Part shown: positions 6,825 to 22,977 of the stretch, piece by piece
Numbering within the stretch: the stretch's first letter is position 1
Layout: each line of letters starts with the position of its first letter
IMG/VR virus record: IMGVR_UViG_3300030450_000543
Span: 1 to 23,790 of that record
DNA length: 23,790 bases
Strand: one strand, 5' to 3'
DNA from: a virus
The notes under the pieces: model-generated
Databases searched by the model: none
What the model was told of the DNA's origin: nothing
What the model saw: only the letters and a program-made list of their open reading frames with translations
Program-made: the position numbers and the translations under genes

Positions 6825-7730
6825 ATGGCTTTTACTGCTTGGGCTGGTTCAACTGCTTATAGCGTTGGTGACATAAGAAGAGCAGTAACGCTCCAGCCAA
6901 CTGGTCTTGTTTTTAAATGTACTGTTGCAGGAACTTCTGGAAGTTCAGAACCTCCCTGGCCTACAGACGTTAACGGAACAACAACAGATGGAACAGCGAC
7001 ATGGACTGGTATCAGTGCGCTTTACGACGATTTATCTTCATTAGCTCCTGATACTGTCATTGAATTATTTGAACTTAGACCAACCTTAGAACTACATGGA
7101 ACAACAACTATAACTAGATGGCACTGTGGAGTAGCAACTGACCAAGTAAGTAACATCGTTTGGAACGGTAATTCTTACATTCGGATTCCAGTTCAGGCGG
7201 ATGGTTTTGATTTCACTTCGGCGGGAAGTTTACCCAGACCAACTCTTACGGTTGCTAATAATTTTCCTATCTTTGCCGCCTCTATTTCAGCTTTACTGAT
7301 TGATGTCAATGAGACAACAGCAGGTAATGACTTAGGAGGCGCGGAAGTAAGAAGAATAAGGACATTAAAGAAATATCTTGATGGAGAATCTGCTGCTGAT
7401 CCTTCCGCTACATGGCCTGAAGAACGTTGGTATATAGATAGGAAATCTTCAGAAAATAGAGATAGTGTTGTATTTGAACTTGCTTCAAAATTTGACCTTG
7501 CGGGTATGCACGTTCCGAAAAGACAGTTAGTAGCAAATATTTGTCAATGGGCTTATCGAAGTTCTGAGTGCAGCTACTCAGGCAGTAATTATTTTGATAT
7601 TAACGATGATAGTGTCTCCACTTTGGCGGCTGATCGATGCGGCAAACGTTTAAGTAGCTGCAAGAAGAGGTTTGGTGAAAACGGAGAGCTACCTTTCGGT
7701 TCATTCCCAAGCGCAGGAAGATTCAAATGA
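6825..7730 (+). CDS. Minor tail protein, lambda gpL-like, with four-Cys Fe-S motif and extra N-terminal domain
   Basis: 301 residues versus about 232 in lambda. Residues 1-65 (FTAWAGSTAYSVGDIRR, GLVFKCTVAGTSG, TDGTATWTG) form a small carbohydrate-binding-like module common at the ends of marine phage tail proteins. The gpL body starts near 'LYDDLSSLAPDTVIELFEL'. The C-terminal domain has cysteines at 240, 249, 272 and 279, spacing Cx8Cx22Cx6C, which equals the spacing I recall for the [4Fe-4S] ligands of lambda gpL. It ends 'LPFGSFPSAGRF' as the family does. It is a tail-tip component. The stop overlaps the gpK ATG by 4 bases. Confidence 0.85.
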   Translation: MAFTAWAGSTAYSVGDIRRAVTLQPTGLVFKCTVAGTSGSSEPPWPTDVNGTTTDGTATWTGISALYDDLSSLAPDTVIELFELRPTLELHGTTTITRWHCGVATDQVSNIVWNGNSYIRIPVQADGFDFTSAGSLPRPTLTVANNFPIFAASISALLIDVNETTAGNDLGGAEVRRIRTLKKYLDGESAADPSATWPEERWYIDRKSSENRDSVVFELASKFDLAGMHVPKRQLVANICQWAYRSSECSYSGSNYFDINDDSVSTLAADRCGKRLSSCKKRFGENGELPFGSFPSAGRFK

Positions 7731-8440
7731 TGCTACCAACTAACATTCAAGAGGCTGCACTTAAACAAGCTAAAGAAGAATTTCCAAGAGAAAGTTGTGG
7801 TTTAGTTGTTGTTATAAAGGGAAAAAGACGTTATTTCATTTGTAAAAACATAGCCGAGACCCCCTATGAACATTTTGTATTAGATCCAAATGACTATGCC
7901 GAAGCTCAAGATAAGGGAGAAATAGTAGCAGTCGTTCATTCACATCCGAAAACTAATCACGCTCCATCACAAGCAGACAAGGTGGCTTGCGAAAAAACAG
8001 GACTACCCTGGCACGTTGTCAATCCAAAGACAGAATTATGGGGTTATTGTGAGCCTTCTGGTTATGAATTGCCTTATGTCGGCAGAGAATTTGTTCATGG
8101 AATCATTGATTGTTATACGCTTTGTCGAGATTGGTATAACAAAGAATTAGGTTTAAACCTAAAAGATTACGAAAGGCGAGATGATTGGTGGCATAAGGGA
8201 CAAAATTTGTATTTAGATAACTTCAAAAGAGAAGGTTTCCATGAGATAAAAGAAGAAGAATTGCAGTTTGGAGATGCTTTATTAATGCAAATAGAATCAC
8301 CAGTCCCTAATCATGCTGCTATTTTCTTGGGGGAGAATTTAGTTCTCCATCACGTTCAAGGAAGATTGTCCTCCAGGGATGTGTATGGGGGCTATTATCA
8401 AAAGAATACTGCGAAGGTATTAAGGCATGAAAGTCGTTAA
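7727..8440 (+). CDS. Tail-tip peptidase, lambda gpK-like: JAMM metallopeptidase plus NlpC/P60 domain
   Basis: 237 residues with two enzymatic domains. The JAMM/MPN domain (~1-110) shows Glu22 (ESCG) and H71-x-H73-P with S81-x-x-D84, the complete zinc set. The NlpC/P60 domain (~122-237) has the catalytic Cys129 (DCYTLCRDWY), His196 (NHAAIFLG) and a likely third polar residue among His208/209. In lambda-type tails gpK is needed for tip assembly, and the P60 half may cut peptidoglycan during DNA entry. Length and order match lambda gpK. It is preceded by gpL with a 4-bp overlap and overlaps gpI by 14 bp. Confidence 0.9.
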   Translation: MMLPTNIQEAALKQAKEEFPRESCGLVVVIKGKRRYFICKNIAETPYEHFVLDPNDYAEAQDKGEIVAVVHSHPKTNHAPSQADKVACEKTGLPWHVVNPKTELWGYCEPSGYELPYVGREFVHGIIDCYTLCRDWYNKELGLNLKDYERRDDWWHKGQNLYLDNFKREGFHEIKEEELQFGDALLMQIESPVPNHAAIFLGENLVLHHVQGRLSSRDVYGGYYQKNTAKVLRHESR

Positions 8441-9053
8441 GGTTTACGGAGAATTGAAAAAACGCTTGGGCGGCAAAAGCCAGTTCAAGTTTGACGTTCG
8501 TACTCCAGCGGAAGCACTTAAAGCTTTGTGTGCAAATTTTCCTGGTTTAGACCAATGGTTACTAGATAGTCAAAAAGATGGAGTTGCTTATAAGGTTCTT
8601 TTAGGGAAAGAACGTATACACGAAGAAAACGCAGAAAAGCTCCTACTCCCTTGGAGCGAGAAAGAGACCTTTAGGATTACCCCTGTTATTGCGGGTGCTG
8701 GTGGTGCGGGGAGATTTTTAGCAGGTGCATTGCTTGTCGGTATTGCCATATTTAACCCTGTAGTAGGCATGGGATTAGCAGGAGGAATGGGCTTCGGTGC
8801 TGCTGCGGGAGCAGGTTTCGGAGCAATGATGGTTGCAGCAGCAGGAAATTTAGGTATTTATTTAATGCTTTCAGGTGTTGCTCAGATGCTTTCTCCTACT
8901 CCTAAAGCTCCTGACCTAAATGCTAATAAGATCAAAAACTACTCATTTAGCGGCATACTTAATACAACTTCCCAAGGTTTTCCAGTACCCATCTGCTATG
9001 GAAGGTGCTTCACTGGATCAGCAGTCATTTCCGCAGGTTTAGATGTTGTCTAA
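8427..9053 (+). CDS. Tail assembly protein, lambda gpI-like
   Basis: 208 residues. The N-terminal ~90 residues are a ubiquitin-like beta-grasp (MKVVKVYGELKKRLG, ending FRITPVIAGAGG). A very hydrophobic glycine/alanine segment (~90-165) follows. The short C-terminal part 'KNYSFSGILNTTSQGFPVPI' with 'CYGR' resembles the segment seen at the end of gpI proteins ('...NTTSQGNPVPVLYGR'). gpI acts with gpK in building the tip; in lambda neither is abundant in the virion. It overlaps gpK by 14 bases and its TAA abuts the gpJ ATG. Confidence 0.85.
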   Translation: MKVVKVYGELKKRLGGKSQFKFDVRTPAEALKALCANFPGLDQWLLDSQKDGVAYKVLLGKERIHEENAEKLLLPWSEKETFRITPVIAGAGGAGRFLAGALLVGIAIFNPVVGMGLAGGMGFGAAAGAGFGAMMVAAAGNLGIYLMLSGVAQMLSPTPKAPDLNANKIKNYSFSGILNTTSQGFPVPICYGRCFTGSAVISAGLDVV

Positions 9054-12000
9054 ATGGATAAAGAACTCACTGAACAACTAGGTTTTGGCGTTGCTGGTGC
9101 AGGTGGCGGAGGCTGTTTTATAGGGAAAACCCTGGTTTCCACTCCTGACGGACATAAACCCATATCGGAGATAAAAGAAGGAGATACTGTATTAAGTTTT
9201 GACGATCAATCAGCAATACATGAAGCAAAAGTTCTAAAGGTCCACGAACATGAAAACGAAGAGATATGGGAATACAACTTCTGGGGCGGATCTTCTTTTA
9301 CAGCAACCCCTAACCACTGGGTATTAAATCAGTTCAACGCATTTGTTGGCATTGGAACGCTCGACACAGATGATTGTGTTGTTAATGAAAACAATCACTT
9401 AGTACCAATTACAGGTAAGAAACCAATAGGTTTCGATACTGTTTATAACCTAACTGTAGAGAATCAACATACCTTCATTGCTAATGGAATAAGGGTACAT
9501 AATGCAGGACTAGGTTTAGGGATAAGGGGGTCTGGTGGTGGAAATAAAGGAGGAGGTGGTCACGTTCCAACAGAGGCCGACGATAACTTAAGAAGTGTTC
9601 AATACGGAAAAGTTTTAGACCTTATCTCTGAAGGTGAAATCGAAGGTATTGAAGGTGGCGGTAAGGGAATTTATCTAAACGGGACTCCAATTTTAAGTTC
9701 TTCTGGGTCAGCTAATTTTACTGGGTATGACTTTGCTACTAGGAATGGAACACAGGCTCAAACCTATTTAGGCGACGACAAGGCAAGAGTAGAAGTAGAG
9801 AAACAAGTAAACGTAGAAGTTAAACAATCTGTTCCCGTAACTAAACAGATCACAGATTCGGAGGTGGATCGTGTAAGAGTAACGATGAGGATACCTGCTC
9901 TCCAACAGTTTGAAGATGATGGAGACATCGTTGGTTCAAGTGTTTCTATAGATATCTTGATTCAGTACAACGGAGGTGGTTTTAACTCTGCTGTTGCACA
10001 AACGATTTCAGGTAAATCTAGTAGTGTTTATCAACGAGATTTCATGGTTCCTATCAACGGGGCTTTTCCTGTTGACATAAGGTTTACAAGGATTACTGCT
10101 GATGGTTCTTCTAGCAAGTCAGCTAATCAAACATGGTGGAGTAGTTACACAGAGATAAAAGATGAAAAGCTGAGATACCCTAACAGTGCTTTATGTTGGC
10201 TCAAATTTGACTCAACACAGTTCAATAGTATTCCAGACAGAAAATATTTAGTACGAGGAATAAAAGTAAAATTACCAAGCAATGCTTCAGTCGATACAAC
10301 AACACATATAGGAAGAGTTACATATAGTGGAATATGGGATGGAACGTTTGGAGCTGCTACTTGGTGTAACGACCCTGCCTGGTGTTTGTATGATTTAATG
10401 GTGTCTACTCGTTACGGTGCAGGGATACCAGAAAGTTCGTTAGATAAGTGGGATTTTTACAATATTTCGACGTATTGTAATGAATTAGTGAATGATGGAA
10501 AAGGAGGTCAGGAGCCGAGATTCGCTTGTAATATTTACTTAAATATGAGGGCGGAAATATACAATGTTATACAGCAAATGACCTCATTATTTAGAGGTAT
10601 TAGTTATTATGCCGCCGGAAGTCTAGTTGTTTTACAAGATAAACCTTCAGACGCTCAGTATCTATTAGGACCAGAAAATGTTATAGACGGGATATTCAAT
10701 TACTCAGGTTCAGGTCAAAAAGCAAGACATACAACTTGTGCCGTTGCATGGCAAGACTACGCAACTTTAGGTGATGTCCAATGGGAGTATGCAGAAAATG
10801 CAGATGCCATATCTAAATACGGAATCATCAATACAGAAATAAAAGCAATAGGGTGTTATTCGCAGGGTCAAGCGCAAAGAGCTGCTAATTGGTTACTACT
10901 GGCTGAAGCAAATTTAACGGAGACAGTTACCTTTGGAGTCTCAATAGATAGCGGTGTTGTGGTACGCCCAGGGATGGTAATCGAGATTGCCGATCCAGTG
11001 AAAGCGGGTCAAAGAAGAAGTGGTCGTCTTAATTCTGCAACCCTCAATCAAGTTGTTATAGATACTGCTGAGAATGTATCTGTTGATCTAGGAGAAAGCC
11101 CCACTATTTCAATATTAATGCCGACAGGTATGGTTGAAACCAAAGGAATAACAGGAATAACAGGTACAACAATAACTTTATCAAGCTCCTTAAGTGAAGT
11201 ACCGACTGCCGGAACGATATGGCTAATTGAAACAGCAAATTTAGTACCCCAGAAATTCAGAGTAATTTCAGTTACAGAGAGCGATTCAACTATCTTTAGT
11301 GTTACAGCTCTTCAGTACAACGAGAGTATTTACAGTGCAATTGAAAACAACACGAAGATAGAAACTCCACAGATTAGTGATCTTTCTGTTGCTCCAGGTG
11401 CAGTTACTAATATCACTGGTACTGAACACTTATATCAAGATGGATCGAATGTATTAACTGCTTTTGATTTGAGTTGGACACCTCCTGTTCAAAATGTTGC
11501 CGAATATTTAGTTAACTATCGGATGGGAAATAATAACTGGGTACAGGTAAAGACTTTATCTCCTTCACTCCAAATAAAAGGATTAAAGGCAGGAGCATTA
11601 CAGGTAGAAGTTCAGGCAACAAACTTTATAGGTTCTAGTAGTGAATTTGCTAATGCAAACTTTGATATTTTAGGTAAAACATCTATCCCTGGAAATGTCA
11701 CTAATCTCTCCATAGAACCTATCAACGAAAACTCAGCAAGACTTCGCTGGGACGCTACAACTGATTTAGATGTAAAGAGTGGCGGAAGAGTTCATATTCG
11801 TCATTCCAGCAAAACAGATGGATCTGCAACTTGGACTAATAGTGTTGATCTTATAAATTCCAAAGGGGGAGCAACAACAGAAACAGTCATACCTCTTGTA
11901 GCTGGTGAGGTGATGGTTAAGTTTGCCGATTCAGGCGGCAGAATGAGTGCATCAGAGACAAGTATCATTGTTGATCCTCCAGATCCAATAGGTGATTTAC

Positions 12001-12812
12001 AGGTTTATGTGAGAAGAGAAGATCAGGATTCACCTCCATTCCAAGGGGCTAAAGTTGATACTTTTTACAGTACTGAATATGATGCATTAGCTTTAACAGG
12101 TGATGCCGAATGGGACGCAGTAACCGATGTTGATGCTATAGGTAACTTTGATTTCATTGGGAATATAGAAGAAACAGGAACTTATACATTCTTAAATAAC
12201 TTGGACCTAGAGGGTGCTTTCGCTCTTGAACTGGAAAGAAGATTCGTAACAAGAGGTTTTCTACCTGCTGATTTAATAGATTCTCGTTTTGCAAATATAG
12301 ATACTTGGGAGGATTTTGACGGAGCTTCAGTTAACAGTGTAAACGCAATATTAGAAGTAAGAACCACTAATGATGACCCTGCAAGCGGTGGTGCGTCTTG
12401 GGGTTCTTGGCAAAGTTTTGTTAACGGAACGTTCCAGGGTCGTGGTTATCAATTCAGAACAACATTAACCAGTGGGGCTGTTGATGAAAACATCCTTGTT
12501 GATGAATTAGGCTATACAGCTTCTATAAAAAGAAGAAGCGAACAAAGTAATACAGCAGTATCTAGTGGAGCTGGAACAAAAACAGTAACGTTCACAAAGC
12601 CGTTCTTCACTGGAACGACTGCTTTAGGTGGAGGTACGAGCACCTATTTACCAAGTGTCGGAATTAATGTGAACAATATGGCTTCTGGAGATTACGTAGA
12701 AATGGGAGCTGTAACAGGTACTCAATTCCAAGTAACTTTTAAAGCGTCAAATGGAAGTGCAGTAAGCAGAAACTTCACTTGGACAGCTACCGGATACGGC
12801 AAAGGGGTTTAG
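9054..12812 (+). CDS. Central tail-tip (gpJ-like) host specificity protein with an embedded Hint/intein-like domain
   Basis: 1252 residues. Residues 1-20 are a short Gly-rich leader, 21-150 a complete Hint domain (separate entry), and 151 onward the usual gpJ start: Gly-rich 'GGGHVPTEADDNLRSVQY' then 'VLDLISEGEIEG', the hallmark of J proteins. The central tip domains extend to about 770. Two fibronectin-III-like domains follow (~780-872, FDLSWTPP; ~878-972, ARLRWDA), then the typical C-terminal block from 'IGDLQVYVRRED' (~979) to the end. It forms the trimeric tip hub that closes the tail and contacts the host. Without the Hint domain it would be about 1120 aa, close to lambda J (1132). The ATG abuts the gpI stop. 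Confidence 0.9.
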   Translation: MDKELTEQLGFGVAGAGGGGCFIGKTLVSTPDGHKPISEIKEGDTVLSFDDQSAIHEAKVLKVHEHENEEIWEYNFWGGSSFTATPNHWVLNQFNAFVGIGTLDTDDCVVNENNHLVPITGKKPIGFDTVYNLTVENQHTFIANGIRVHNAGLGLGIRGSGGGNKGGGGHVPTEADDNLRSVQYGKVLDLISEGEIEGIEGGGKGIYLNGTPILSSSGSANFTGYDFATRNGTQAQTYLGDDKARVEVEKQVNVEVKQSVPVTKQITDSEVDRVRVTMRIPALQQFEDDGDIVGSSVSIDILIQYNGGGFNSAVAQTISGKSSSVYQRDFMVPINGAFPVDIRFTRITADGSSSKSANQTWWSSYTEIKDEKLRYPNSALCWLKFDSTQFNSIPDRKYLVRGIKVKLPSNASVDTTTHIGRVTYSGIWDGTFGAATWCNDPAWCLYDLMVSTRYGAGIPESSLDKWDFYNISTYCNELVNDGKGGQEPRFACNIYLNMRAEIYNVIQQMTSLFRGISYYAAGSLVVLQDKPSDAQYLLGPENVIDGIFNYSGSGQKARHTTCAVAWQDYATLGDVQWEYAENADAISKYGIINTEIKAIGCYSQGQAQRAANWLLLAEANLTETVTFGVSIDSGVVVRPGMVIEIADPVKAGQRRSGRLNSATLNQVVIDTAENVSVDLGESPTISILMPTGMVETKGITGITGTTITLSSSLSEVPTAGTIWLIETANLVPQKFRVISVTESDSTIFSVTALQYNESIYSAIENNTKIETPQISDLSVAPGAVTNITGTEHLYQDGSNVLTAFDLSWTPPVQNVAEYLVNYRMGNNNWVQVKTLSPSLQIKGLKAGALQVEVQATNFIGSSSEFANANFDILGKTSIPGNVTNLSIEPINENSARLRWDATTDLDVKSGGRVHIRHSSKTDGSATWTNSVDLINSKGGATTETVIPLVAGEVMVKFADSGGRMSASETSIIVDPPDPIGDLQVYVRREDQDSPPFQGAKVDTFYSTEYDALALTGDAEWDAVTDVDAIGNFDFIGNIEETGTYTFLNNLDLEGAFALELERRFVTRGFLPADLIDSRFANIDTWEDFDGASVNSVNAILEVRTTNDDPASGGASWGSWQSFVNGTFQGRGYQFRTTLTSGAVDENILVDELGYTASIKRRSEQSNTAVSSGAGTKTVTFTKPFFTGTTALGGGTSTYLPSVGINVNNMASGDYVEMGAVTGTQFQVTFKASNGSAVSRNFTWTATGYGKGV
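9114..9503 (+). other. Hint (intein / bacterial intein-like) domain inside gpJ, residues 21-150
   Basis: All splicing-type motifs are visible. Block A starts with the catalytic Cys21 (GGGG|CFIGKTLVSTPDG, 'PISEIKEGDTVLSFD'). Block B is TATPNHWVL, with Thr85 and His88. Block F is 'DTVYNLTVENQHTFIANG' with His139. Block G is 'IRVHN', with His149 and Asn150. The domain is 130 residues with no homing-endonuclease insert. The next residue is Ala151, not Cys/Ser/Thr, so classical splicing lacks its +1 nucleophile; this fits A-type bacterial intein-like domains, which can cleave at either end and sometimes splice. It sits exactly between two glycine-rich stretches, so removal or cleavage should leave the gpJ fold intact. 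Confidence 0.88.
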
Positions 12813-13472: not shown

Positions 13473-14102
13473 ATGGCAATTACACTCAATGGCACGACAG
13501 GAATAGTCACTGCTGATGGCAGTGTTGGTGCTCCTGGCCTGAAAGGAACTGATGCAGATAGTGGATTAAGTTTTGCTGCTGATTCTATTAAATTCTCAAC
13601 GGGTGGGGTTGAGAGAATGGCAATCTCTAATAGTGGGGTTACTGGAATAAGTGCAGGAAAGATACTTGAAGTAGTATCTGCTGTCTCAACAACTTTGCTT
13701 AATAGCACAACTGTAGATACAGATCTTGACACTAATTTATCTGGATCAATAACAACAACTGGATCAAATAAAGTTTTAGTTCTAGTCAATCAAAATATAG
13801 TTGGTAGAAGAACTACTACAGGTGGTCTGAGTTTGGCTTGGAAGCTACAAAGAAGCACAGACGGAGGTGGCTATTCTGTAATTTATAATAGCGATGCTGA
13901 TCCATCACTAGAATTTAGAGCGTCTGGAGTTAGTGTTTATAACGTTTGCAGATGGAATGCTTGCTTGAATTTCTTAGACAGTCCAGGGGCAGGTACTCAT
14001 ACATATAAAACTACTTTAAAGATGTCAGGCGGAGAAGTCACTATGAAAGCTCAAGAAGATGGTCATCCATCAACTATTACTTTTATGGAGGTGGAAGCAT
14101 GA
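13473..14102 (+). CDS. Fibre protein, cassette 1 (paralogue of the gene at 14401)
   Basis: 209 residues. The N-terminal ~60 residues (ITLNGTTGIVTADGSVGAPG, 'LSFAADSIKFSTGGVERMAIS') are a fibre shaft segment with the widespread 'F.T.G.ERM.I' motif. From 'GKILEVVS' to 'STITFMEVEA' there is a ~145-residue beta-rich domain shared with the 14401 gene (same GKIL-x-VVS start, ITTT-, G-THTYK- and -STIT-x-MEV-x-A end), likely the receptor-binding tip. The last codons ATG GAG GTG also carry GGAGGT (14087-14092), a good Shine-Dalgarno 6 nt before the next ATG, which overlaps this stop as ATGA. Confidence 0.65.
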   Translation: MAITLNGTTGIVTADGSVGAPGLKGTDADSGLSFAADSIKFSTGGVERMAISNSGVTGISAGKILEVVSAVSTTLLNSTTVDTDLDTNLSGSITTTGSNKVLVLVNQNIVGRRTTTGGLSLAWKLQRSTDGGGYSVIYNSDADPSLEFRASGVSVYNVCRWNACLNFLDSPGAGTHTYKTTLKMSGGEVTMKAQEDGHPSTITFMEVEA

Positions 14103-14404
14103 CCTACGATAGATTCGATGCTTTAGTCTCGTTAAGACCGGGTAAACAGTACACATGGTCTGGGACGAATTATAAAGATATAGTTGGCACTGATATACCA
14201 ACAGAATCAGAAATAAACGCAGAACTAACTAGATTAAATACTGAATATACAAATAATAAATATCAAAGAGATAGAGAGGTTTTATATCCTCCTTTAACCG
14301 ATTTAGCAGATGCTTTGTATTGGAATAATGAAGGAGATGATACTAAAATAAAGGCGTATTATGCAGCTTGCAAAAAAGTAAAAGCTGATAACAAAAAACC
14401 ATGA
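14099..14404 (+). CDS. Small fibre-partner protein, cassette 1
   Basis: 101 residues, charged, soluble. N-terminal 'YDRFDALVSLRPGKQYTWSG' resembles small tail-fibre assembly or XkdW-like proteins. The C-terminal half is helical (INAELTRLNTEYTNNKYQRDRE, YPPLTDLADALY) and ends 'KKVKADNKKP', matching the 'KKVKDDNPKP' end of the paralogous partner at 15039. It is joined to the fibre genes on both sides by ATGA overlaps, so expression is tightly coupled. A chaperone for trimerising the preceding fibre is the favoured but unproven role; a fibre-attached small virion protein is the alternative. Confidence 0.6.
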   Translation: MTYDRFDALVSLRPGKQYTWSGTNYKDIVGTDIPTESEINAELTRLNTEYTNNKYQRDREVLYPPLTDLADALYWNNEGDDTKIKAYYAACKKVKADNKKP

Positions 14405-15042
14405 GCAGCGTAAAACTAAAACATAGTTCTGGAAACGGAACGATTATTAACGGGCCAGCAGCGAACCCTTCCGCAGACATCACCTTAAAAGTGCCGTCAA
14501 CAACGGGATCAGCAGGTCAGGCTCTTAAGGTTGCTTCTGCTAATCACAGCTCAACAAATGCGGAACTTGAATGGGGAGGTTCTGGCAAGATTTTAAAAGT
14601 AGTTAGCTTTAGTTTTACATCTTTAGACGATATAACTTCTAAAACTTGGACAGATACTTCTCTCACAAAATCAATAACAACTACAGCAGCAGATACTTCC
14701 GTTTTAGCTTTAGTCTCTATATCTTGGGCTTTTAATAGAAGTTCTGCCTCTGGTGGATTTGGTTTAAGACTTCTAAGAGATTCTACAACACTTTATCAAG
14801 GTGAAGATGATGGCACGAATGGCCCAGAAGGATTTTATATAGGACCATTTAACGGTAATGCAGTTTGGAGATCTTTTTGGACTCCAACTTATTTAGATGT
14901 TATTGGTACTCATAATGCAGGAGTTGCTTATACATATAAAGTTCAAGCTGCTGTATCTGATGAATCTAGTAGTGATCGTATAAGAATCAATAAAGCATCA
15001 AGTGCTAAATCAACAATAACTCTTATGGAGGTGGCAGCATGA
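14401..15042 (+). CDS. Fibre protein, cassette 2
   Basis: 213 residues. The N-terminus differs from cassette 1: 'MSSVKLKHSSGNGTIINGPA' with 'ADITLKVPSTTGSAGQALKV' is the other widespread cyanophage fibre shaft/neck module. The C-terminal ~140 residues from 'GKILKVVS' are homologous to the cassette 1 tip domain (shared -SITTT-, VLALV-, LLRDS/LQRST-, GTHNAG/GAGTHTYK, STITLMEVAA). GGAGGT at 15027-15032 lies within the MEV codons as in cassette 1. Same tip on different shafts suggests domain shuffling between two receptor-binding proteins. Confidence 0.65.
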   Translation: MSSVKLKHSSGNGTIINGPAANPSADITLKVPSTTGSAGQALKVASANHSSTNAELEWGGSGKILKVVSFSFTSLDDITSKTWTDTSLTKSITTTAADTSVLALVSISWAFNRSSASGGFGLRLLRDSTTLYQGEDDGTNGPEGFYIGPFNGNAVWRSFWTPTYLDVIGTHNAGVAYTYKVQAAVSDESSSDRIRINKASSAKSTITLMEVAA

Positions 15043-15329
15043 CTTTAGACAACGACGCAATTTTTAAAGCTTATCCCAACGTAAAATCTATTAGAGGTGA
15101 TGTGGCTTATGATGACAGTGGGAATAAAGTAACTCTTGTTCAGTCAAAGATTGATACAGCAAGAACAGAGTTAAATACTGCTGCGGCTGCTATCGCTTAT
15201 AAGGCAACAAGAAAAAATCAATACCCTGAGATTGGCGATCAGCTAGACGACCTTTATAAACAAGGTGCTTTCTCTGCTGATATGACAGCTAAGATTAAGA
15301 AAGTAAAGGACGATAATCCAAAACCATGA
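15039..15329 (+). CDS. Small fibre-partner protein, cassette 2
   Basis: 96 residues. Weakly similar to the 14099 partner: both have a helix with 'T-LN-', an 'AYKATRKNQYPEIGDQLDDLY' versus 'KYQRDREVLYPPLTDLADALY' block, and end in 'KKVK-DN-KP'. The N-terminus 'DAIFKAYPNVKSIRGDVAYDDSGNK' is distinct. ATGA overlaps occur at both ends. The recurring fibre-then-partner order argues that each partner serves its upstream fibre. Confidence 0.6.
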   Translation: MTLDNDAIFKAYPNVKSIRGDVAYDDSGNKVTLVQSKIDTARTELNTAAAAIAYKATRKNQYPEIGDQLDDLYKQGAFSADMTAKIKKVKDDNPKP

Positions 15330-15757
15330 GCACATTAAACGCCCAAAACGTAAAGCACGAAACTAGCGGAATTAATACGCTGGTCTTTGATAATGGCGGA
15401 ACGTCAGGTGGTAATGGTCGAGTAACGACTAAAGGAACGATTGGAGAAATTTCTGCTCTTGGTAATCAGACGGGCAACGTAACGATTGATATGAAAACAG
15501 CTAATAATTTCAGCATGACTTTGACAGGGAATCTCGTTTTAAAAAATCCAACAACAGTTGCAGCGGGTCAAAGTGGAGTTATCTATATCACTCAGGATGG
15601 AACAGGCTCAAGGACTTGGAGCGCAGAATCATATTGGGATTTTGCTGGGGGAACCTTGCCGACTTTAAGTACAGGAGCTAATGCGGTTGATGCTGTCGTT
15701 TGGCACGCTCGAACAGCTTCTAAAATTACAGCTCAAGTTGTCCTAGATTTACAATAA
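15326..15757 (+). CDS. Fibre / structural protein
   Basis: 143 residues. 'MSTLNAQNVKHETSGINTLVFDNGG' followed by 'SALGNQTGNVTIDMKTANNFSMTLTGN' and 'GQSGVIYITQDGTGSRTW' is a beta-rich module recurrent in tail fibres of marine phages, ending 'VVWHARTASKITAQVVLDL'. It has no partner gene of the 100-aa type after it; instead its TAA overlaps the ATG of the large adhesin (TAATG). It probably assembles with, or decorates, the neighbouring fibres. Confidence 0.6.
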   Translation: MSTLNAQNVKHETSGINTLVFDNGGTSGGNGRVTTKGTIGEISALGNQTGNVTIDMKTANNFSMTLTGNLVLKNPTTVAAGQSGVIYITQDGTGSRTWSAESYWDFAGGTLPTLSTGANAVDAVVWHARTASKITAQVVLDLQ

Positions 15758-18222
15758 TGTCTTCACTTGGTTCGCCTAATCCTCTGTTAATTGGCGGAGC
15801 TAAAGACTATGAAATTGAAAGGTCTTTAAGGTTTAACAAAGATGATTCGGCTTATTTTAATAGAACTCCTGCGAGTGATGGTAGCTTAACAACATGGACA
15901 TGGAGCGGGTGGTTAAAAAAAGGACAGCTCCGAAACAGTTATAATAGCCATCAAACGATATTTCGTGCTTGTCCCCAAGATGGCAAACTTACTGCTATTT
16001 ACTGGAGAAAAGGAGATAATGCAACTTCTTCTGATGCTGATTGTCTTAGCTTCGCATACTATGCTGGGTCTGGGGCTACAGATTTCCATGTAACTACGTA
16101 TGCACAATATAGAGATATCGCCGGTTGGTATCATGTCGTAGCTATTTGGAATACTACAACTGCTACAGCTAATGATCGTATGCAGTTATGGATTAATGGT
16201 TCAAGAATAACTGTTCCTGAATTGCAATGGAACGTTCAACCTACTCAGAACTTGGCGTCTTATGTCAATGATGCTTCTTATGTTCATACGATTGGGAAAA
16301 GCGGCTCTCCACATGCAGATGACTTTTTAGATGGTTATCTTTCAGAAGTGCATTTTGTTGATGGGCAAGTTTTAGATGCTAGTAATTTTGGCGAAACAAA
16401 TGAAGATACAGGGCAATGGGTTCCTAAAAAATATGCTGGCAGTTATGGAACGAATGGATTCTATTTAAACTTTTCGGATAATTCAGGCACTACAGCAACA
16501 ACATTAGGTAAAGATTCAGCAGGAAGTAATAACTGGACTCCTAATAACTTCTCAGTTGCAGCAGGAGATGGTAATGATTCAGTAATAGATACACCTACAA
16601 ATAATTATTGTGTTTTGAATCCTTTATCTCAATATGATATCTCTGCAGGAGCAAGCACTTATACTAATGGAAATTTAGATTGCGTCCTTGCAACCCAATC
16701 TGGATCTAAAGGTAAAACAGCTTCTACTTTTGAGATTTCTTCTGGTAAATGGTACTGGGAATGTAAATATGTAGCTCGAAGTGCTGCTAGCGGTAATCAT
16801 TTAGGTGTTGGTTTAGCTAATGCAGATTCACCTATACCTATGAAGGAGGGTAAGGCTTGGTATTACTATGGAAATACTCAAAGACAATATTATAATGATG
16901 CTGGTAGTGTAACTGAAGATACTACTATGGGAGTTGCTGTTGAGCCAGGAGATATGTTTTCTGTTGCTCTTGATTTAGATAATGGTAAATGGTATGTAGG
17001 TAAAAATAATACTTGGATTAATTCTGGTAATCCTGTTAGTGGTTCTGGTTCTGTCTGGGATAATGTAACAGGAACAGTTATACCTACTTTTTCTAATACA
17101 ACTGGAGGAGGTACTCAAACTATTTCAGTTAATTTTGGACAGAAAGGTTTCGCTTATACACCACCAACAGGATTTAAAGCATTATGTACAGCAAACCTAT
17201 CTGAAGCAACGATTAAAAAAGGTAGTGATTATTTCAATACTGTTCTTTATACAGGAACAGGTTCATCTCGAACAGTACCTGTTGGTTTCGCTCCGAATTT
17301 TACTTGGATAAAGAAACGTAATTCTGCTGAGAACCATGAGGTACAAGACACTGTAAGGGGAGCTACGAAAAGACTGGCATCAAATACTGCTGATCAGGAG
17401 AGTACAGTTGCAGGTAGTATCTCAGCCTTTACTTCAGATGGTTTTACAGTTGTAGATGCTGGTACAACTAATGAAAATACACATACTTATGCTGCTTGGA
17501 ACTGGAAAGGCGCAGGAAGTAATCAGACTTTAACTGCAGGTGATAACGACACAGTGGTTAACGCTAATCCTACGGCAGGGTTCTCCATAGTTACGTGGAC
17601 AGGTACAGGATCTACGCCAGCTTCAATGGCTCATGGATTAGGTGTCGCTCCAGAACTGATTCTAATCAAGACTAGAAGTAATGGTACGAATTGGGTTGTC
17701 TATAATAAACCTTCTGGCATAAGTAAATATATGCACCTACCTGAGACTAATGCCGCAGCAAGTTCTACAAATTATTTTGCAGATGGCAGTGGAAATGGAC
17801 CTAGCAGCACTGTTTTCTGGGGTAGGAATGATGGAAACACTTCTGGTCAAACCATGGTGGCTTACTGTTTTGCAAGCGTAGAAGGTTACAGCAAGGTAGG
17901 TAGCTATACAGGGAACGGAAGTGCTGATGGTACTTTTATTTATACAGGATTTAAACCTGCTTTCGTCCTAAGTAAGTCTTCATCTCATGCTGAAGCTTGG
18001 AATATCTTTGATAATGTGAGAGACCCTGATAATAAGGTTCATCATTTATTAGTACCTAATACGAATACAGAAGAAAATAATTCAACTGCTGCAAGAGAAT
18101 TAGATTTCCTTTCTAATGGATTTAAAATGAGAGGCACTAATGACACAATAAATGGAAGTGGTAAAACCTATATATACTTAGCTATAGCTGAACGACCTTT
18201 CAGATACGCCAACGCCCGCTAA
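15757..18222 (+). CDS. Large adhesin: LamG-like, SPRY-like and repeated C-terminal domains
   Basis: 821 residues. The leader 'SSLGSPNPLLIGG' is followed by a LamG/concanavalin-like domain at ~20-215 (RSLRFNKDDSAYFNRTP, WTWSGWLKKG, GWYHVVAIWNTT, MQLWINGSRIT, DGYLSEVHFVDGQVLD). A SPRY-like domain lies at ~285-460 (SGKWYWECKY, HLGVGLANAD, SVALDLDNGKWYVGKNNTW). Three related repeats then follow at ~496-586, ~612-710 and ~714-821, each opening with a YTGTG/WTGTG/YTGNG strand, then a G-aPxfxxIK segment. The last ends 'YIYLAIAERPFRYANAR'. These are sugar/protein-binding folds, so it is the best candidate for the main receptor-binding adhesin. Length and late position fit. Confidence 0.75.
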   Translation: MSSLGSPNPLLIGGAKDYEIERSLRFNKDDSAYFNRTPASDGSLTTWTWSGWLKKGQLRNSYNSHQTIFRACPQDGKLTAIYWRKGDNATSSDADCLSFAYYAGSGATDFHVTTYAQYRDIAGWYHVVAIWNTTTATANDRMQLWINGSRITVPELQWNVQPTQNLASYVNDASYVHTIGKSGSPHADDFLDGYLSEVHFVDGQVLDASNFGETNEDTGQWVPKKYAGSYGTNGFYLNFSDNSGTTATTLGKDSAGSNNWTPNNFSVAAGDGNDSVIDTPTNNYCVLNPLSQYDISAGASTYTNGNLDCVLATQSGSKGKTASTFEISSGKWYWECKYVARSAASGNHLGVGLANADSPIPMKEGKAWYYYGNTQRQYYNDAGSVTEDTTMGVAVEPGDMFSVALDLDNGKWYVGKNNTWINSGNPVSGSGSVWDNVTGTVIPTFSNTTGGGTQTISVNFGQKGFAYTPPTGFKALCTANLSEATIKKGSDYFNTVLYTGTGSSRTVPVGFAPNFTWIKKRNSAENHEVQDTVRGATKRLASNTADQESTVAGSISAFTSDGFTVVDAGTTNENTHTYAAWNWKGAGSNQTLTAGDNDTVVNANPTAGFSIVTWTGTGSTPASMAHGLGVAPELILIKTRSNGTNWVVYNKPSGISKYMHLPETNAAASSTNYFADGSGNGPSSTVFWGRNDGNTSGQTMVAYCFASVEGYSKVGSYTGNGSADGTFIYTGFKPAFVLSKSSSHAEAWNIFDNVRDPDNKVHHLLVPNTNTEENNSTAARELDFLSNGFKMRGTNDTINGSGKTYIYLAIAERPFRYANAR

Positions 18223-18845: not shown

Positions 18846-19103
18846 ATGGGTGTAAGGGCTTTAAAAAAAGCTTCTCTCCAAATTCCTTCCATGCAAAAGA
18901 TTATCAATGCTTTAAGTGTAATCTCCTTTTTGCTTGTTGTTGCAATCTCAGGCGGAGGGGTGTTTGGCTACCTTTGGATTACAAATGAAGAGAACCAAGA
19001 AAAGATTAAAAAACAACTCATAGGAAACTTAACAGAATCGCTCCCTATACCGAAAGCTTTAACTGGCCCTGCTCTTCCCACGGCTCCCATTCCAAAATTC
19101 TAA
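18846..19103 (+). CDS. Small single-span membrane protein, unknown function
   Basis: 85 residues. A basic N-terminus (MGVRALKKASLQIPSMQK) precedes one hydrophobic helix at ~23-45 (LSVISFLLVVAISGGGVFGYLWI), then a charged helix (NEENQEKIKKQLIGNLTESL) and a proline-rich end (PIPKALTGPALPTAPIPKF). The topology could suit a spanin- or pinholin-like lysis role, but no specific family is recognised. Its TAA overlaps the nuclease ATG (TAATG). Confidence 0.6.
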   Translation: MGVRALKKASLQIPSMQKIINALSVISFLLVVAISGGGVFGYLWITNEENQEKIKKQLIGNLTESLPIPKALTGPALPTAPIPKF

Positions 19104-19588
19104 TGGCAGAACTAAAACCCCCAAATCGTATTAGTTGCTGGAACTACAAGGTAAGCAAAGTGGATCGTGTTGTAGATGGGGACACGATTGATGTAACCAT
19201 TGATCTCGGCTTTGACTTATCTATTAAGCAACGGGTTCGAGTAGCAGGAATAGATACACCAGAAAAACGCACCAGGGATTTGGAAGAGAAAAAGCTTGGT
19301 ACGGATGCTACTTACTGGTTAGAGGATAAATTGGATGATGCAGTTAACGACGGCTATGAATTAACGCTTCGGACGGAGCTGGATAAAGGAGCAACTGGAA
19401 AATATGGAAGATTATTAGGATGGATATACGTCGGTAGTGGAGTTGTTTCACTAAACGAGCAGATGATTGCGGAAGGTTATGCGTGGCCTTATGACGGGGG
19501 AACAAAACAGAAAAACTTTGAAGAACTAAGGGAGGTCAGAAGATCTCTCGGCACTTTACCCCCAAAAACTGATGGAAGCAGCAACTAA
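19103..19588 (+). CDS. Thermonuclease (staphylococcal nuclease homologue)
   Basis: 161 residues with the complete SNase active-site pattern: 'VVDGDTIDV' (Asp25/Asp27), 'RVAGIDTPE' (Arg46, Asp51, Thr52, Glu54) and 'KYGRLLG' (Arg103), followed by 'LNEQMIAEGYAWPYDGG'. The family is Ca2+-dependent and cleaves DNA and RNA phosphodiester bonds. No signal peptide is seen, so action inside the infected cell (host DNA/RNA breakdown or nucleotide recycling) is more likely than secretion. It overlaps the upstream membrane-protein gene by one base and the next gene by 17 bases. Confidence 0.9.
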   Translation: MAELKPPNRISCWNYKVSKVDRVVDGDTIDVTIDLGFDLSIKQRVRVAGIDTPEKRTRDLEEKKLGTDATYWLEDKLDDAVNDGYELTLRTELDKGATGKYGRLLGWIYVGSGVVSLNEQMIAEGYAWPYDGGTKQKNFEELREVRRSLGTLPPKTDGSSN

Positions 19589-21966: not shown

Positions 21967-22481
21967 TAGTCCACAAGTGTTTCGATAATGCTTGTTGCAG
22001 TACAGCTAGAACCAGCACCCATAGTTCCACTACAGGTATGCACGCCGCTTGTCAAACTCGTTATCGTTCCTCCGTTCACTCCGCCCGAACCTGTAACAGT
22101 AGAACCAAGAGAAGGGAGCGAGCCAACTACACCAGAGCTAACCGTCGTGGCTGATTGGATTGCATCCCCGTGGGTGTAACTTTCAACCGCTGAGAACGCA
22201 GATCCAGCAGTGGTTATGGCTAGATTTGTGTCCACAATCGCAGGGACTCCTGCCGTCAGACTTGTAGTAGTTAGCGATCCAATTGCTCCGCTAGTTGTTG
22301 TACCTGAAACCGTGGTACTTGGCGTGACATTAGACCCTGAGACTGAATAAGTTGAACCTATTCTTGTCGCAGAAGAATAAGCAGGATCAAGAGTAATAGT
22401 CGCACTCGATTTTATGGAGTGACGAATATCGGCTTGCACTGGTGTGGCTAACAGCAAAAGCAGTGGAAGTAGTTTTCTCAT
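21966..22481 (-). CDS. Exported Ser/Thr/Gly-rich protein, unknown function
   Basis: 171 residues. Textbook signal peptide MRKLLPLLLLLATPVQA with cleavage before DIRHS. The mature protein is low-complexity beta-rich: 'IKSSATITLDPAYSSATRIG', 'TYSVSGSNVTPSTTVSGTTT', VESYT at 99-103, and two Cys (150, 160) that could form a disulphide in the periplasm or on the surface. Similar exported proteins accompany fibres in cyanophages (from memory). ATGA overlap with the holin-like gene upstream. Confidence 0.75.
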   Translation of the reverse strand: MRKLLPLLLLLATPVQADIRHSIKSSATITLDPAYSSATRIGSTYSVSGSNVTPSTTVSGTTTSGAIGSLTTTSLTAGVPAIVDTNLAITTAGSAFSAVESYTHGDAIQSATTVSSGVVGSLPSLGSTVTGSGGVNGGTITSLTSGVHTCSGTMGAGSSCTATSIIETLVD

Positions 22482-22948
22482 GGTTTTAGTTGTCCTGATA
22501 CGGGGTCAATTTCTTTGCCTGTTATTGGATCGTATTTAACGACCTCGGCTCCTTCTATCTTAAGAGGTGTTACTACTCTGATGGTCTGATACGCGCCACC
22601 GCCATTATTTGCAGCCATCATTTTCTCCATATCCTCCTTGGTAATTCCGTTTCCGCCTTTTTTAGATGCAGCTTGGACGCCAAAAGTCGTTAATGTTGAT
22701 GTAAATATCGAAGCAATGAACGTGGGATCAAATGTTTGTTTAGCGAATCCTGGGATATCTATGTACGCCAAAGTCAAGCAGAATCCAGACCATACAACAA
22801 TGCCCAAACGCACTGCTACACCTATGATTTGAATTTGTTCATCCTTATCGGGTGTAAGTTCCTGAAGCTTGCCTAGTACACCTTCTTTCTTAGCTACTTT
22901 CTTTTCCTTTGGTGGAACGTCGTTTTGTGTTGACTTGGGTTCTGCCAT
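22478..22948 (-). CDS. Two-helix membrane protein, possibly a holin
   Basis: 156 residues from ATG 22948 (MAEPKSTQNDVPPKEKK). A longer reading from TTG at 22972 adds eight residues but lacks support. A charged N-terminal helix is followed by two hydrophobic segments: 'IIGVAVRLGIVVWSGFCLTLAYI' and 'TFIASIFTSTLTTFGV'. A soluble C-terminal part ends in 'DPITGKEIDPVSGQLKP'. Two helices with a polar N-terminus and small size fit holin-like proteins, but no endolysin is adjacent, so this is tentative. It heads the minus-strand operon; 29 bases separate it from the divergent 22978 gene. Confidence 0.65.
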   Translation of the reverse strand: MAEPKSTQNDVPPKEKKVAKKEGVLGKLQELTPDKDEQIQIIGVAVRLGIVVWSGFCLTLAYIDIPGFAKQTFDPTFIASIFTSTLTTFGVQAASKKGGNGITKEDMEKMMAANNGGGAYQTIRVVTPLKIEGAEVVKYDPITGKEIDPVSGQLKP

Positions 22949-22977
22949 AAGATAAATGCAATACTCTAGCAATCTAG

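Follow-up and report, generated by a model that had tools for sequence, protein, structure and literature searches.

A-type bacterial intein-like (BIL) domains, reportedly described by Amitai in 2003 and by Dassa in 2004, are the described elements with which the domain reported here can best be compared. Like it, they (2lwy being an example) are endonuclease-free Hint folds of about 130 residues with Cys at position 1, a TxxH motif, a block F, a terminal His-Asn and a non-nucleophilic +1 residue. BILs have been described from variable regions of bacterial proteins that are not themselves conserved (PMC5874633, PMC7765530). Type A BILs, which have His-Asn and lack a +1 nucleophile, are able to splice and mostly cleave; the path proposed for them starts with an N-terminal thioester and Asn cyclisation, after which the freed amine attacks the thioester (PMC4031507). 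The Tetrahymena domain BIL2 acts via an N-terminal thioester without canonical splicing (PMC8616854). Phages also carry inteins, in TerL, helicase, polymerase and RNR, such as that of phiCbK TerL (PMC3556154). Those inteins, often larger, are Hint domains in enzymes of DNA packaging and metabolism, whereas the domain described here occupies the N-terminus of a structural protein. The open-access PMC literature searched yielded no report that places a Hint or BIL domain in a gpJ or tail-tip protein. Nor do we know of any description of a Hint step, autoproteolytic or self-ligating, in the receptor-binding hub of a siphophage.

The window, by which we mean the whole stretch of DNA analysed, is a 23.8-kb virus record (IMGVR_UViG_3300030450_000543, positions 1 to 23,790). 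It holds a siphophage tail operon with gpK-like, gpI-like and gpJ-like genes in the lambda order (7727-12812), and the following features were assigned.

7727 to 8440, plus strand: gpK-like JAB and NlpC/P60 protein (Pfam Prok-JAB, NLPC_P60).
8427 to 9053, plus strand: gpI-like tail assembly protein (PHROG 32, E 3.6e-50).
9054 to 12812, plus strand: gpJ-like central tail tip or host specificity protein, 1252 residues; its N-terminus carries the Hint domain.
9054 to 9113, plus strand: N-flank, the equivalent of an N-extein, MDKELTEQLGFGVAGAGGGG; the -1 residue is Gly20 (Gly in 200 of 202 loci).
9114 to 9503, plus strand: A-type BIL-like Hint domain, Cys21 to Asn150, 130 residues, from profiles, PDB sequences and the model.
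9114 to 9116, plus strand: Cys21, position 1, the putative N-S acyl shift nucleophile (conserved in 191 of 192 homologues).
9306 to 9317, plus strand: block B, T85-P-N-H88 (TxxH; Thr in 192 and His in 191 of 192).
9468 to 9470, plus strand: His139, the block F histidine (192 of 192).
9498 to 9503, plus strand: block G, His149-Asn150, putative site of Asn cyclisation (192 of 192 each).
9504 to 9563, plus strand: C-flank, AGLGLGIRGSGGGNKGGGGH, with Ala151 at +1 and Gly at +2 (from 202 loci and comparison with empty sites).

The product of the third gene matches PHROG 31 (central tail fiber J) over residues 158-1241 with E 2e-224, as well as Pfam FNIII-A_GpJ and Phage-tail_3; its match to NCBIfam lambda_TipJ is under the curated cut-off. 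The PHROG 31 and FNIII-A_GpJ domains and the K-I-J gene order identify it as a lambda gpJ-like tail tip protein, and the stop codon of the gpI-like gene lies immediately 5' of its start codon. The hydrophobic, Gly/Ala-rich middle of gpI (8427-9053) occurs as several unrelated alleles in relatives that are about 90% identical elsewhere (L126, L135, L125, L104, L098 and L124), and looks like a swap-prone cassette. It corresponds to H1/H2 of lambda gpI, for which outer membrane entry has been proposed. This variation is independent of the Hint state: an apparent link between the two disappeared when the same gpI allele was seen with and without Hint. Elsewhere in the window, two tandem pairs at 13473-15329 (13473-14102 with 14099-14404, and 14401-15042 with 15039-15329), each of a protein of about 210 residues ending in TITxMEVxA and one of about 100 residues, resemble duplicated fibre plus chaperone modules. 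A DUF7483 protein (15757-18222; Pfam E 1e-109), a staphylococcal-nuclease homologue (19103-19588) and, on the minus strand, a DUF6450 protein (22478-22972) were also noted.

Hint profile searches were performed with the 185-residue N-terminal piece of gpJ, and E-values refer to each tool's own search space. Pfam Hint (PF01079) was matched with E 2.7e-8 and 34.1 bits against a cut-off of 29.7, and PT-HINT with E 9.8e-7 and 29.5 bits against 27.7; Intein_splicing (E 2.1e-8, 34.6 bits) fell slightly below its cut-off of 35.8. NCBIfam TIGR01443 (intein_Cterm) and TIGR01445 (intein_Nterm) both exceeded theirs. Among PDB sequences, Tetrahymena BIL2 was the best match (E 2.6e-8), and the Clostridium thermocellum BIL 2lwy (E 2.9e-5) and mini-inteins were among the best. 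An AlphaFold2 model built on a 54-sequence alignment (A3) has a BIL/intein fold at residues ~21-150 with pLDDT ~95. Values below 50 at residues 1-17 and 153-185 mark the flanks as disordered, so that the predicted structure is a compact Hint fold carried on two flexible Gly-rich arms. Foldseek returned BIL2 as the best structural match (E 1e-11, TM ~0.8), with 2lwy at a target TM of 0.87 and 1.6 A, the NpuDnaB intein at a target TM of 0.86, and the gp41-1 intein. Profile scores over curated cut-offs and the predicted Hint beta-fold place the domain in the Hint superfamily.

The domain runs from CFIG to RVHN, with T85-P-N-H88, H139 and H149-N150, and is followed by Ala151 at +1. By sequence it is A-type BIL-like and distinct from a canonical intein: Cys1 and TxxH each occur in 191 of 192 homologues and His-Asn in all 192, and no +1 nucleophile is obligatory across 202 loci. 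We write "BIL-like" because the element sits at a fixed site in the conserved gpJ in all 202 loci, rather than in variable regions of non-conserved proteins, a departure from A-type BILs that is distributional and not mechanistic. It forms an orthologous family in a conserved virion protein of hundreds of phages, and is nonetheless optional among near-identical genomes. The class 1 mini-inteins (NpuDnaB, Ssp DnaB, gp41-1) share its fold, Cys1, TxxH and His-Asn but require Cys, Ser or Thr at +1, where the gpJ Hint has Ala or Gly in 198 of 202 loci and one of the required residues in two; in the window +1 is Ala, and a canonical intein was rejected on this ground. Class 3 inteins lack Cys or Ser at position 1 and have a block F Cys (WCT triad), whereas here Cys1 is present and block F (VYNLTVE) has no Cys. 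A homing intein was likewise rejected, as all 130 residues are Hint and no endonuclease domain lies inside the element. The nearest non-gpJ relatives found are BIL-type domains in RTX-type proteins encoded on Trichormus variabilis and Roseibium plasmids (32-33% identity over 95% of the domain), which share Cys1, TxxH, YN[FL]TV..HTYVAG and RVHN. They differ in having Glu or Asp at +1 and in residing, without Gly-rich flanks, in large calcium-binding proteins rather than phage gpJ.

The initial annotation, made from the sequence alone, had described a complete 130-residue Hint domain (Cys21 to His149-Asn150, blocks A, B, F and G) of A-type BIL-like class in a gpJ. Its boundaries proved exact by profiles, conservation and fold; the class (Cys1, His-Asn, non-nucleophilic +1) extends to 192 homologues and 202 loci, the gpJ setting agrees with the gpJ profiles and K-I-J order, and the structural modelling that it had proposed as a check does give a Hint fold. 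Its placement of the domain within a glycine hinge needs amending: the Gly-rich flanks are there, but the domain is an N-terminal module of gpJ and does not lie deep in a hinge.

Family scans of IMG/VR kept the best 80 relatives for the window-domain query, and two other queries gave at least 442 and at least 561 confirmed stretches. The 202 distinct loci come from the best 80 of each scan and are not a census. In all 202 the Hint domain lies at the gpJ N-terminus and is followed by the gpJ motif. Its length is exactly 130 residues in 79 of the first 80 members, the exception being L022, which lacks Cys1. Among 192 unique full-length sequences, in domain numbering, T65, H119, H129 and N130 are present in 192, and Cys1 and H68 in 191; the non-catalytic residues W57, N67, W69, L71, N72, F77 and D87 are invariant. 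The median dN/dS over 720 pairs is 0.098, indicating strong purifying selection, and the pattern of conserved residues indicates that the domain is under selection for its chemistry. Strong purifying selection and one fixed site are unlike a diversification device, a role that the initial annotation had also raised; its suggestion of cross-linking found no support.

Some members deviate. In L022 (around 1341-1786) Cys1 is lost (GGGGFVGT), and in L015-L017, from three metagenomes, TPNQ replaces TPNH in block B, with the gpJ frames still open in each case; some phages may do without the N-terminal step, unless the sequences are errors or decaying copies. A second branch of the family has Gly at +1 (mostly GGHR...) and lacks the second Cys (DDC to HDA in L165); it includes L165 1333-5337, on an Oxalobacter sp. 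contig, and L247, L249 and L255, on virus records of 99-110 kb.

All gpJ-Hint homologues lie on environmental or MAG/draft contigs, and a search of 50,697 isolate phage records (INPHARED) found no member of the family, only distant Vibrio helicase inteins. By gpJ and tape measure, the closest isolates are the Prochlorococcus/Synechococcus siphophages MED4-117, MED4-184 and S-H1; the gpJ proteins of MED4-117 and MED4-184, at 37-38% identity the closest isolate relatives of the window gpJ, start straight after gpI and have no Hint, in contrast to the window. A scan of host genomes yielded two contigs, one from a cyanobacterial MAG and one from Oxalobacter, the Oxalobacter member lying beside K, I and J genes. 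Given these isolates and the member in a cyanobacterial MAG, the host of the window phage is probably a marine picocyanobacterium, while the family reaches further. In MED4-117 (L082 2781-3749) and MED4-184 (L083 2365-3333) gpI and a JAB-like part of gpK form a single fused protein of 322 residues (phrog_35166), which is too short for an added NlpC/P60 domain. The gpJ of MED4-184 (L083 3400-6973, NC_020847.1) is unannotated and in two frames near its start, either a sequencing error or a real frameshift; that of MED4-117 is intact.

The residues at the junctions are narrowly constrained. Across the 202 loci, +1 is Ala in 178, Gly in 20, Lys in 2, Ser in 1, Thr in 1 and Cys in none, and +2 is Gly throughout. 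The Hint domain mostly begins 12-21 residues (at most ~26) after the gpJ start. The C-flank carries IxG[SA]GGGG again, a motif shared by the N-flank and the start of Hint-less gpJ, so that C-cleavage alone would yield an N-terminus like that of Hint-less phages. Strict covariation of the two flank repeats was rejected: residue matching is weak, with 73 matches against 61.7 expected in a count that ignores the relatedness of the sequences. An internal translation start was also considered as a source of Hint-free gpJ. No ATG, GTG or TTG occurs within 60 codons downstream of the window Hint, and an in-frame ATG within 40 codons is absent in 194 and present in 8 of the 202 loci, so Hint-free gpJ would have to form post-translationally.

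The initial annotation had suggested a survey of related phages for gpJ with and without the insert, and both forms were found. Inspection of 80 loci from a gpJ-core search showed Hint in 51 (in one of them judged from a truncated contig end) and clearly none in 27; contig ends cut off the other 2. Empty-site relatives have the same Gly-rich gpJ start, MTRILGAGGGGGGGGGGKGGGG in L126, compared with MTRIVGSGGGGGGG-[Hint]-AGLGLGIAGAGGGGGGGGKGGGG in L135. These two share long flanking blocks of 94-96% DNA identity, apart from the variable gpI stretch and, immediately 5' of gpJ, 248 bp at 87%, and the net insert of ~435 bp corresponds to the 130-codon domain and ~15 codons repeating the IxG[SA]GGGG start. 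Further pairs without and with the domain are L118/L089, L124/L098 and L160/L151; in L118/L089 even the N-terminal codons of the empty and full forms agree closely. On an unrooted gpJ-core tree built by a quick method, at least eight presence/absence changes are required, four of them forced by well-supported branches. The Hints of L010 and L014 are 85% identical on gpJ cores that are 28% identical, so the N-terminal module seems mobile between distant gpJs; Hints of about 85% identity on such 28%-identical cores were likewise seen between L010 and L018-L020, and the gpJ of L018 and L019 is ~1800 residues long. From these comparisons the domain is an optional module, likely gained or lost repeatedly by recombination at the Gly-rich gpJ start. 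Since close relatives manage without it, the domain is not generally required for a working tip, and the earlier suggestion that tip maturation depends on a Hint step is not supported. Its suggestion of autoprocessing fared better, with profiles, residue conservation, predicted fold and junction residues all supporting its likelihood.

From the sequence, the predicted fold, the conservation, the fixed site and the pattern of presence and absence, we infer a chemistry, timing and benefit as follows. The Hint domain probably excises itself from precursor gpJ, whether through cleavage, through ligation without a nucleophile, or through both. gpJ would be made as a precursor with a small, endonuclease-free Hint near its N-terminus, which would fold independently between disordered Gly-rich arms. 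Cys21, aided by T85 and H88 of block B, would turn the Gly20-Cys21 bond into a thioester, and Asn150, aided by H139 and H149, would cyclise and cut the Asn150-Ala151 bond. With Ala or Gly at +1 the branched intermediate could not form; either N- and C-cleavage would part the flanks, or Ala151, its alpha-amine freed, would attack the Gly thioester and so join them. In both cases the 130-residue domain would leave gpJ before the trimeric tip assembles or while it does so, and mature gpJ would have a Gly-rich N-terminus of the same kind as in Hint-less relatives. Removal at this stage is the simplest expectation, as in the lambda tip the N-terminal part of gpJ lies packed together with gpI and gpL (PMC10721106, PMC11101478). 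If C-cleavage alone sufficed, the near-perfect conservation of Cys1, TxxH and Gly-1 would lack an explanation, which suggests that the N-terminal step is selected as well; the Cys1-less L022 and the TPNQ of L015-L017 suggest that it is not absolute.

One form of self-removal is that in which splicing dominates. The domain would then be a near-silent mini-intein that leaves gpJ with a slightly longer, ligated Gly linker (Gly20-Ala151), and recombination would spread it as a neutral or selfish passenger. Every residue needed for the N-S acyl shift and for Asn cyclisation is retained, the small, unhindered residues at -1, +1 and +2 would suit direct, nucleophile-free ligation, and type A BILs can splice through attack of the freed amine (PMC4031507), yet known type A BILs with the non-nucleophilic +1 seen at 200 of 202 loci mostly cleave (PMC4031507). 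The C-flank is already a complete Gly-rich start, so ligation would be unneeded. Patchy presence among phages ~90% identical and the disparity between the L010/L014 Hints and their cores fit a passenger, but one without a homing endonuclease. On balance we consider dominant splicing possible and rather doubtful. It is hypothesized, more speculatively still, that the optional self-removing module is a timed maturation or conjugation switch, improbable as this seems at present: gpJ would be kept unready, or its Gly-thioester passed to an amine of a tip subunit, until the Hint reacts.

If the Hint stayed in the mature tip in a structural or adhesive role, it would be conserved for its fold instead of its catalysis, which would account for the several invariant non-catalytic residues. 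The catalytic positions, at 99.5-100%, are conserved beyond the demands of structure alone, and a tip like that of lambda, where the gpJ N-terminal region packs against gpI and gpL (PMC10721106), would probably have little room for three more 14-kDa domains, making this reading unlikely. Marginally less likely again is a conjugation platform, in which a lysine amine, of the C-flank or another tip subunit, attacks the Gly thioester and the N-peptide becomes isopeptide-linked. The idea draws on BIL2 (6tmm, 6y75), the top PDB match in both sequence and fold, which is reported to form isopeptide bonds (PMC8616854), although BIL2 belongs to the BUBL context of ubiquitin-like flanking domains and its isopeptide formation is reportedly zinc-activated. 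A Lys lies within the Gly-rich C-flank in 195 of 202 loci, but it also occurs in Hint-less gpJ and is not Hint-specific; of the adjoining gene products, gpI is a tail assembly protein and gpK has a JAB domain. The N-flank that would be transferred is only 12-26 residues long with variable first residues, and close relatives have no Hint. A fortuitous resemblance, a defunct relic or an artefact of assembly, to which the exclusively environmental or MAG/draft homologues and 0 of 50,697 isolate records might point, is refuted for the gpJ-Hint family: its 192 unique homologues are conserved, independent libraries match it significantly, and it is under purifying selection and occurs on hundreds of contigs.

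Self-removal remains the reading that we prefer, and the family is well suited to pursuing it. There are hundreds of orthologues at one site, gpJ has been located in the lambda virion at atomic detail, and natural gpJ pairs differ almost solely by Hint, which makes the purpose and removal of a BIL directly testable. The peptides that would tell the processing states of gpJ apart in virions are AGLGLGIRGSGGGNK, the ligated ...GGGG-AGLG... and Hint-internal ones. Mature gpJ probably begins at residue 151 or is ligated there, and annotation and structural work on these abundant uncultured phages is affected accordingly. In the window phage, the host-contacting tail-tip protein probably trims itself to its working size before the virus functions.
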